DNA of 64,000 nt from Halorientalis persicus (GTDB lineage: Archaea > Halobacteriota > Halobacteria > Halobacteriales > Haloarculaceae), in contig NZ_FOCX01000001.1 in NCBI RefSeq assembly GCF_900110215.1, forward strand, positions 62,001 to 126,000, read 5' to 3'. Positions 2,712-3,926 of the stretch are shown here, piece by piece. Position 1 is the stretch's first letter, and each line of letters begins with the position of its first letter. A program made the translations under genes and the position numbers. Below the pieces are notes generated by a model that did no database searches, had not been told where the DNA came from, and saw only the letters and a program-made list of their open reading frames with translations.

Positions 2712-3239
2712 TCACTCTTTCTCGAGCCACGCCGAGAGATCCGACACGGCTTCCAGTCCGTCGTGGGCGAGTTCGAGTTCCTCCATGGCGACGCCGGACC
2801 GATCCGCGACGAGTTCCGGCCCGGTCCACTCGACGGGCGTCGCCGAGAGACACCGCCAGCCCCGGACCGGCCGACCGGCCCCGTCGAGCAAGAGGACGTG
2901 AACCGTCCGCGGTTCGATCGTGCCGGCGACCCAGTTCTGGAGCCAGTCCCACAGCGTCGTGTCGCCGCCGACGCCACGGCGGAGTTGCAGGTTCGGTGAC
3001 TGGGTGCGGCGGCGCTCGGTCGATGGCAGGGACTCGCGATACTGGTCGAACCAGTCGCCGAAGTCCCACCAGGGGCTGTCGTCGGCGTCGCCGTCGCCAG
3101 TCCCCGACTCCGAGTCGGGTGCCACCTCCACGCGAACGGAGAGGCCCCGGACGGCCGAAAAGCCCAGTCGCTCGCCCGTGCCGATATCGACCGCGAACCG
3201 GTGACTGGGGTACGGGTCCGGCGGGTCGTCAGCGGCCAT
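2712..3239 (-). CDS. Tail-tube protein of phage / contractile injection system type (gp19/Afp1-like), copy 2
   Basis: 175 aa. The N-terminal pattern D-P-Y-P-S-H-R-F-A-V-D-I followed by G-F-S-A-V-R-G-L, and the C-terminal pattern W-T-G-P-E-L then E-E-L-E-L-A-H-D-G-L-E, are hallmarks of the T4 gp19 / TIGR02241 tail-tube family. That family builds the inner tube of phage tails and extracellular contractile injection systems. A Ser/Asp-rich insert of about 30 residues (45-75) interrupts the usual fold. The gene follows its paralogue by 39 nt on the same strand. No sheath, baseplate, spike or AAA+ terminator gene is near. The family call is strong; whether it assembles anything is unknown. Confidence 0.8.
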   Translation of the reverse strand: MAADDPPDPYPSHRFAVDIGTGERLGFSAVRGLSVRVEVAPDSESGTGDGDADDSPWWDFGDWFDQYRESLPSTERRRTQSPNLQLRRGVGGDTTLWDWLQNWVAGTIEPRTVHVLLLDGAGRPVRGWRCLSATPVEWTGPELVADRSGVAMEELELAHDGLEAVSDLSAWLEKE

Positions 3240-3278
3240 CGGTTCGCCCCCGCGACTCGCTCACCAGTTCGGTGTCCG

Positions 3279-3719
3279 TCATGCCACGCGCTCGAACCCC
3301 TCACAGACGAGTTCGAGCGATTCGACGGCCACGTCCTCGCCGGTGGCGTCGAGTCGCGGGGCCTGGTAGGTCGCGGGCCACACGTTCCGGAGCTCCCAGC
3401 GAGCGCCCGCTTCGCCCTCGCGGTCGAGGACGACGATGGCGACCGTGCGCCGGGCCTCGTCGACTTTTCCCTGTTCGACCTGCTTGCGCCACTCGAACAG
3501 TTCGATGGAGTCGTCCGTGACGCCGCTCCGAAGGACGACCCGCCCGTAGCGGTTCAGCCCCGCCAGCTGTCGGACCGTCGGCGGGTCAGTCCCCTCGCGG
3601 TACTCGATCACGTCCGTGCTACTGGTCGGCTGGCGACACGCCGCGAAGCCGGCCTTGGCGATCCCGTCGATCTCCAGCAGGAATCGAATGTTCCGGTACG
3701 GGCCGTGTTTGTCCGGCAT
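3279..3719 (-). CDS. Tail-tube protein of phage / contractile injection system type (gp19/Afp1-like), copy 1
   Basis: 146 aa, the usual length of a tube protomer. The order of motifs is canonical: Y-R-N-I-R-F-L-L-E-I-D-G-I at 8-20, V-I-E-Y-R-E-G at 37-43, L-N-R-Y-G-R-V-V-L-R-S-G-V-T-D at 55-69, a W-R-K-Q-V segment at 77-81, V-W-P-A-T-Y at 113-118, and a closing E-S-L-E-L-V-C-E-G-F-E. This copy is closer to the consensus than its neighbour. ATG 3719 is chosen over upstream in-frame starts because the extra residues are basic shadow sequence. Two distinct tube paralogues side by side mirror complete injection-system loci, but nothing else of such a locus is visible here. Confidence 0.85.
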   Translation of the reverse strand: MPDKHGPYRNIRFLLEIDGIAKAGFAACRQPTSSTDVIEYREGTDPPTVRQLAGLNRYGRVVLRSGVTDDSIELFEWRKQVEQGKVDEARRTVAIVVLDREGEAGARWELRNVWPATYQAPRLDATGEDVAVESLELVCEGFERVA

Positions 3720-3926
3720 GGCTATGCCGTGCCCTCCGGTCGAAGTTCGATGTCGACTGTGCGTCCACCTGCCGCGAGGCTCCGATACATTTCGTTTCAG
3801 CTTCAGATCGGACGTACATAACGGTACCTCCCCAGCAGTGAGAAAACGAAAATCGGTGCGTCCGCGTTCGGTCGCTCCCCGTAGTGTCACACGCTCCAAG
3901 TGCGAAGGGGGTCCCAGACCGTCAGA
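3720..3926. other. Spacer upstream of the tail-tube pair
   Basis: 207 bp without a convincing gene. It must hold the promoter of the tube genes (minus strand) and the 3' end of the ribonucleotide reductase upstream of its stop at 3927 on the other side. The stretch at 3787-3822 (cgatacatttcg... to ...gtacataacgg) is the most AT-rich and could contain TATA-like elements. A run gagaaaacgaaaat at 3840-3853 is also AT-rich. Confidence 0.3.

Follow-up and report, generated by a model that had tools for sequence, protein, structure and literature searches.

Two tube-family genes beside a ribonucleotide reductase gene

Can tail-tube genes serve a cell in which no sheath, baseplate or spike lies beside them? 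The question is raised by two adjacent genes, T1 and T2, in a stretch of 64,000 nucleotides from Halorientalis persicus (NCBI RefSeq assembly GCF_900110215.1, contig NZ_FOCX01000001.1, positions 62,001 to 126,000), which as a whole is called the window. The two genes and their nearest neighbours are:

3279..3719, (-) strand, T1, Cis1-type inner-tube protein, 146 aa
2712..3239, (-) strand, T2, Cis5-type tube adaptor, 175 aa
3927-7067, (-) strand, ribonucleotide reductase (RNR)
2401-2691, (+) strand, membrane protein, 96 aa

The original prediction had placed two adjacent tail-tube genes between a small membrane protein and ribonucleotide reductase, and both points were confirmed. Pfam profile searches with PF06841 (cut-off 28.2) gave E = 5.3e-38 and 130.3 bits for T1 over residues 10-143, and E = 3.5e-24 and 85.6 bits for T2. 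The profile aligned to T2 at positions 47-134 only, because of an insert at T2 residues 40-76, and a custom profile built from relatives matched the N-terminal half of T2 as well. In NCBIfam, TIGR02241 (cut-off 62.4) scored 129.2 bits with T1 and 73.7 bits with T2. T1 also matched CIS1_fam, and the best match of T2 was CIS5_fam, the "inner tube adaptor"; both of these contractile injection system (CIS) equivalog models scored below their strict cut-offs here, as they did with bona fide haloarchaeal CIS tube controls. By profile and fold, T1 and T2 are members of the T4 gp19/CIS tube protein family (PF06841, TIGR02241). Further neighbours of the pair are an HTH gene and a molybdopterin oxidoreductase gene. 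The membrane protein and the HTH gene were considered as partners and rejected, being present in other Halorientalis genomes without the pair and missing at other sites.

Sheath, baseplate and spike genes in the genome

The window genome (4.87 Mb, completeness 100%) contains exactly two gp19 genes, and no third was found in it. Neither sheath family, Phage_sheath_1C (PF17482) or Phage_sheath_1 (PF04984), was detected in the genome, nor were gp25 (PF04965) and the gp5-type spike Phage_base_V (PF04717). The absence of an injection-system context, which had been predicted for the locus, thus extends to the whole genome for the CIS-type sheath, gp25 and the PF04717 spike. The accompanying claim that there is no prophage holds for the locus and fails for the genome, since a myovirus-type contractile-tail provirus lies on another contig (L095; C53:50700-70600). 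It carries the sole sheath found in the genome, a tail sheath matching phrog_10244, together with tape measure and baseplate wedge genes. Its tube protein belongs to no recognised family, and the small genes that follow its sheath are not gp19. Membership of the pair in this provirus was rejected, as the small genes at the expected tube position are the provirus's own. No capsid, portal, terminase or tail genes were seen beside the pair at the sites inspected, where the flanks are of the housekeeping type. No phage record exceeded 31% identity to T1, and scans of viral contigs and phages returned solely CIS- or phage-type relatives at 37% identity or less. No eCIS or prophage to which these tube genes could belong was found elsewhere in the genome.

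Distribution and chromosomal sites

Across the order surveyed, gp19 genes were present in 57 of 293 haloarchaeal genomes. In 37 of these 57 a CIS sheath was also found, typically directly upstream of the tube genes, forming complete CISs; the other 20 have no CIS sheath. The original prediction had proposed a search for the same pair in other haloarchaea, and adjacent T1-T2 pairs were recovered from 28 of the sampled genomes in six genera: 25 in the family including Halorubrum (170 genomes; 8 in genus g72, 8 in g56, 7 in Halorubrum, and 1 each in g69 and g96) and three in Halorientalis. None of the 28 carries a CIS sheath (PF17482). The 29 haloarchaeal loci referred to below are those of the 28 pair genomes and H. 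pallida. Mutual exclusion of the pair and CIS was only weakly significant and is phylogenetically confounded, and it is given no weight here. A pair in Planctomycetota (L037) was considered as a bacterial orphan pair and rejected, as LysM (Cis7-like) and hub-like genes come next.

Conserved synteny was also proposed as a check. T1 and T2 remain adjacent and occupy one fixed chromosomal site in each genus, whereas the sites of different genera are unrelated, about six in all. The pair lies by RNR and molybdopterin genes in Halorientalis and by threonine dehydratase and HHH protein genes in Halorubrum (names beyond those Pfam-scanned were read from the sequence); it lies by hisC and GMC oxidoreductase genes in g72 and by beta-glucosidase, P-type ATPase or TRAM genes in g56 (names partly read from the sequence), with two further sites. 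At the sites compared, the pair is not accompanied by any constant third gene. Within Halorientalis, three of the eight genomes sampled have the pair at the RNR site. In another (G294, contig C132, locus L118) it has been deleted, and of T2 only the 3' end survives, as about 12 codons (EAVSDLSAW) between RNR and the membrane-protein gene; the pair was therefore once present there and then lost. The pair is thus dispensable.

In bacterial T6SS, orphan Hcp/VgrG islands place tube genes outside the main cluster, where they serve a T6SS elsewhere in the genome. T1 and T2 could likewise be spare tube subunits acting in trans for a provirus or CIS, and the myovirus-type provirus of the window genome does encode a sheath and a baseplate protein. 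However, that provirus has its own small genes, not gp19, at the tube position. The PF04717 spike was found in none of the 28 pair genomes and in 3/3 CIS controls, gp25 in 0/13 pair genomes tested and in 3/3 controls, and Baseplate_J is missing from most pair genomes tested. The likeness to the islands is that the tube genes stand apart from a cluster; the difference is that this genome has no such system elsewhere, and neither a CIS sheath nor a PF04717 spike was found in the window genome as the sign of a cognate secretion system. With the CIS sheath also absent from all 28, we regard such a role as extremely improbable.

Origin from a contractile injection system

When 105 tube proteins were placed in a maximum-likelihood tree, the orphan T1s formed one clade (100/93) inside haloarchaeal Cis1 and the orphan T2s formed one clade (100/99) inside Cis5. 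Every pair added in an extended FastTree stayed in these two clades. With some of the Cis1 proteins from live haloarchaeal CISs, T1 shares 61-67% identity, and T2 is up to about 42% identical to the Cis5 adaptor of haloarchaeal CIS. An archaeal T6SS has been described in Halogeometricum borinquense (PMC11566945), and the complete haloarchaeal CISs found here are of the same kind; T1 and T2 descend from such loci (for example L052, L053, L059 and L061), with identities that do not exceed those just given. In solved systems, the layers that come first between the spike and the tube are Cis5 and Cis7, which are termed "tube initiators" (PMC8894136). The pair had been predicted to be two divergent tube paralogues. 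Both the tree and NCBIfam correct this: judged from the sequences, the pair is a tube protein (Cis1 type) and an adaptor or initiator (Cis5 type), both derived from haloarchaeal CIS. Since one T1 clade lies in Cis1 and one T2 clade in Cis5, the Cis1-Cis5 pair left an archaeal CIS of the archaeal T6SS type once, and the two genes have been inherited together ever since. The Halorientalis copies fall among those of a different family, a grouping that may reflect horizontal transfer or loss.

Loop motif and predicted structures

The two proteins differ at the beta2-beta3 loop, where the following segments were delimited.

3540..3602, (-) strand, T1 residues 40-60, canonical beta2-beta3 loop (YREG...RQLAG) retained, from the motif alignment
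3012..3122, (-) strand, T2 residues 40-76, Ser/Asp- and Trp-rich insert in place of the Cis5 beta2-beta3 loop motif, from alignments of 29 orphan T2s and the CIS5 set

The loop motif (YREG...RKL.G) is present in 29/29 orphan T1s and 30/31 CIS1 sequences. It is present in none of the 29 orphan T2s, as against 32 of 35 Cis5-type sequences from haloarchaeal CIS. Most T2s have a variable low-complexity insert at the motif position; in G343 the loop is merely short. The AlphaFold monomer model of T1 (pLDDT 83) had the CIS inner tubes 7adz, 9qgl and 6j0b as its best Foldseek matches, with TM values of 0.7-0.8 to CIS tubes. For the T2 monomer model the top match was 7aeb_Y (E = 3e-10, TM 0.57/0.67), an AlgoCIS tube-type chain distinct from the main AlgoCIS tube 7adz_1a. 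The lower TM values of T2 are due to its insert, and residues 40-76 were predicted with pLDDT of 54-66.

The beta2-beta3 loop makes the largest ring-to-ring contact in tail tubes; its deletion abolishes polymerisation in T5 and SPP1, and in phage YSD1 it leads to hexameric rings that form spontaneously without an initiator (reviewed in PMC8718954). On the strength of these deletion results, we infer that T2 may be an initiator freed from the hub and able to form its own rings, while T1 would still be able to stack; the hub-ward direction of the Cis5 loop is carried over from other tubes. Stacking by T2 could also have been lost altogether. The loop loss in T2 resembles that in the major tail proteins of YSD1, which forms rings, and SPP1, which no longer polymerises; those deletions were engineered in siphophages, whereas the loss in T2 arose naturally and is fixed throughout its clade (PMC8718954).

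T1 is about as constrained as Cis1, and it is variable at ten positions where Cis1 is conserved. These include alternating sites of the last strand (S134, E136), where the changes may alter the chemistry of the lumen if the strand is oriented as presumed. Hcp rings can hold effectors. By analogy, the pair might form soluble rings and not tubes, with a T1 hexamer on a T2 hexamer serving as an adaptor or chaperone for a client protein in the lumen. The missing stacking-loop motif of T2 and the possibly lumen-facing sites of T1 would fit such rings. However, a ring-only protein would not need the complete stacking loop that all 29 T1s have kept, and the orientation of the last strand is itself a prediction; we consider this explanation doubtful.

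T1 and T2 could also act in defence, by co-assembling with or capping the tube of a contractile-tailed virus or an attacker's CIS and so aborting its assembly. In favour of this, T1 is still up to 67% identical to live haloarchaeal Cis1, and a T2 that keeps the fold and lacks the loop motif is what a chain-terminating cap would look like. The distribution is patchy and locus-specific, like that of defence genes, and no pair genome has a CIS, although the statistics are weak. The myovirus-like provirus of the window genome has a tube that cannot be recognised as gp19, so that direct co-assembly with it is unlikely, and among the neighbours inspected the pair lies outside islands of known defence genes. 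We therefore rate interference of this kind as unlikely.

An upstream reading frame and the expression unit

T1 is preceded by a short open reading frame and a candidate promoter.

3722..3790, (-) strand, upstream ORF, 22 aa, stop 2 nt before the T1 ATG, with the same kind of geometry in 29/29 loci
3815..3822, (-) strand, TATA-like element, about 28 nt upstream of the upstream-ORF ATG, candidate promoter, GTTATGTA/GTTATATAA in four Halorientalis species

The upstream ORF was found in all 29 haloarchaeal loci (28 with ATG, 1 with GTG), as against 20/125 other genes with long upstream gaps; the 29 loci are related and hence not independent. It measures 22 aa in the window and 16-49 aa elsewhere, and depending on the genus its stop either precedes the T1 start by 2 nt or falls 8 or 11 nt into T1. 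In Halorubrum and g72 the length varies widely, always by multiples of three (in-frame indels), and in g72 a CCT codon of T1 helps to supply the stop codon. The encoded peptide is neutral (omega 0.93-1.14), so selection seems to act on the translation of the upstream ORF and not on its product. A TATA-like element stands about 24-30 nt before the ORF start across the loci, as judged by eye. In Haloferax volcanii, 72% of coding transcripts are leaderless, and this spacing is consistent with the leaderless haloarchaeal promoters described there (PMC4983044). The upstream ORF is probably translated as a leaderless leader cistron. T2 follows closely behind T1, with a 4-bp T1/T2 overlap in several genera. 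Promoter, upstream ORF, T1 and T2 thus likely form one translationally coupled unit, in which the most likely role of the upstream ORF is to couple or throttle the translation of T1. Two other readings of this region were rejected. The upstream ORF is not the eroded 3' end of a sheath gene, as sheath C-termini read FRISQWT..., a sequence missing from the upstream peptides; nor does T1 start further upstream with an N-terminal extension, as the upstream ATG is out of frame.

Intactness and selection

A remnant of a lost injection system, decaying towards pseudogenes, would explain the lack of partner genes, and it would fit the patchy presence in Halorientalis, where one genome has kept a T2 scrap after deletion. 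The copies themselves argue strongly against it. All 29 haloarchaeal copies are open, without internal stops, across several genera and at T1 identities as low as about 56%. Pairwise NG86 estimates of dN/dS (medians in four genera) were 0.19-0.35 for T1 and 0.28-0.32 for T2, within the range of 0.09-0.53 obtained by the same method for flanking genes. T1 and T2 are under purifying selection. In addition, Cis1 and Cis5 were retained jointly while all else has gone, and the geometry of the upstream ORF is conserved. The original prediction of an orphan module that is not simply decaying is supported by these intact copies in 28 genomes of six genera and by dN/dS values of 0.19-0.35 in all four genera tested; the frameshifted, poorly conserved relatives that it named as contrary evidence were not found. 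Decay is very unlikely and already largely refuted.

Other orphan tube genes and unusual CIS loci

Other tube genes without a linked sheath were also observed. A second orphan class, in four haloarchaeal families, consists of a single Cis1-like tube gene and, directly after it, a Peptidase_S74-domain gene belonging to the same family each time, with no linked sheath. Its loci are:

L084:9799-11086, G100, Natronosalvus amylolyticus plasmid
L063:2709-4283
L064:587-2161
L065:9824-11960

The Peptidase_S74 (endosialidase chaperone) domain is Pfam-checked in L084 only. In L065 a twin-arginine-like signal was seen in the partner and a lipobox-like one in a second copy. Two genomes of the genus Halorubrum (G360, L135:9846-10307; G388, L136:9747-10208), in which no CIS sheath was found, have a solitary tube gene that shares 52-56% identity with Bacteroidota CIS tubes and was apparently acquired from bacteria. 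A further class, long-branch solitary tube genes in two families (L080:9671-10186 in G043 and L083:9788-10480 in G180), grouped together at 100/100 in the tree. Two further Halorubrum genomes (L082:9545-10090 in G219 and L137:9821-10309 in G377) have a solitary Cis1-like gene between PIN-domain and undecaprenyl-pyrophosphate-synthase-like genes. Three tube paralogues occur in the CIS loci L086 (G197) and L085 (G174), two of them very divergent in G197.

Comparison with known systems

The fold and the best sequence matches of T1 and T2 are shared with CIS1_fam/CIS5_fam, with 7adz and 7aeb (AlgoCIS), 6j0b/6j0n (PVC Pvc1/Pvc5) and 6rao (Afp1/Afp5), and with 7b5h (Anabaena tCIS). In those structures the tubes lie inside a sheath and on a baseplate. 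Compared with haloarchaeal CIS, the pair is without sheath, baseplate and spike, both here and elsewhere in the genome except in the unrelated provirus; Cis1 and Cis5 are immediate neighbours; the T2 loop motif has been lost; and a leaderless upstream ORF, not a sheath gene, precedes T1. The protein family is known. The conserved sheathless Cis1-Cis5 operon is an arrangement for which we found no description in the open-licence literature.

A possible baseplate-independent tube or ring module

Taken together, there is about an even chance that the pair is a piece of an archaeal CIS, exapted to form a baseplate-independent tube or ring module in a self-contained operon of promoter, leaderless upstream ORF, T1 and T2. 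A more specific proposal, which we put forward tentatively and hold at somewhat below even probability, is a stand-alone, baseplate-free tube or ring stack domesticated from CIS; the one-time adaptor would serve as a free nucleator or cap, with the leaderless upstream ORF gating expression. The Cis1-type T1 and Cis5-type T2 detached once from a CIS operon. T2 would form a hexameric ring independent of the baseplate hub, or unable to dock on it any more, and this ring would act as a free-standing nucleator or cap. T1 rings would then stack on it to give a short cytosolic tube. Our first guess for its role is structural or cargo-holding, and the second is interference with the contractile tails of viruses or CIS.

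Phage-tail-derived machines are thought to require a sheath, a baseplate and a spike. These six genera have kept nothing but the tube and its initiator, intact and together. Encapsulins were exapted from HK97 capsids, and tail tubes may in the same way have been exapted for a cellular purpose; alternatively, the pair may be an archaeal two-gene decoy against contractile weapons. The pair also offers a natural experiment on the role of the beta2-beta3 loop in tube initiators.
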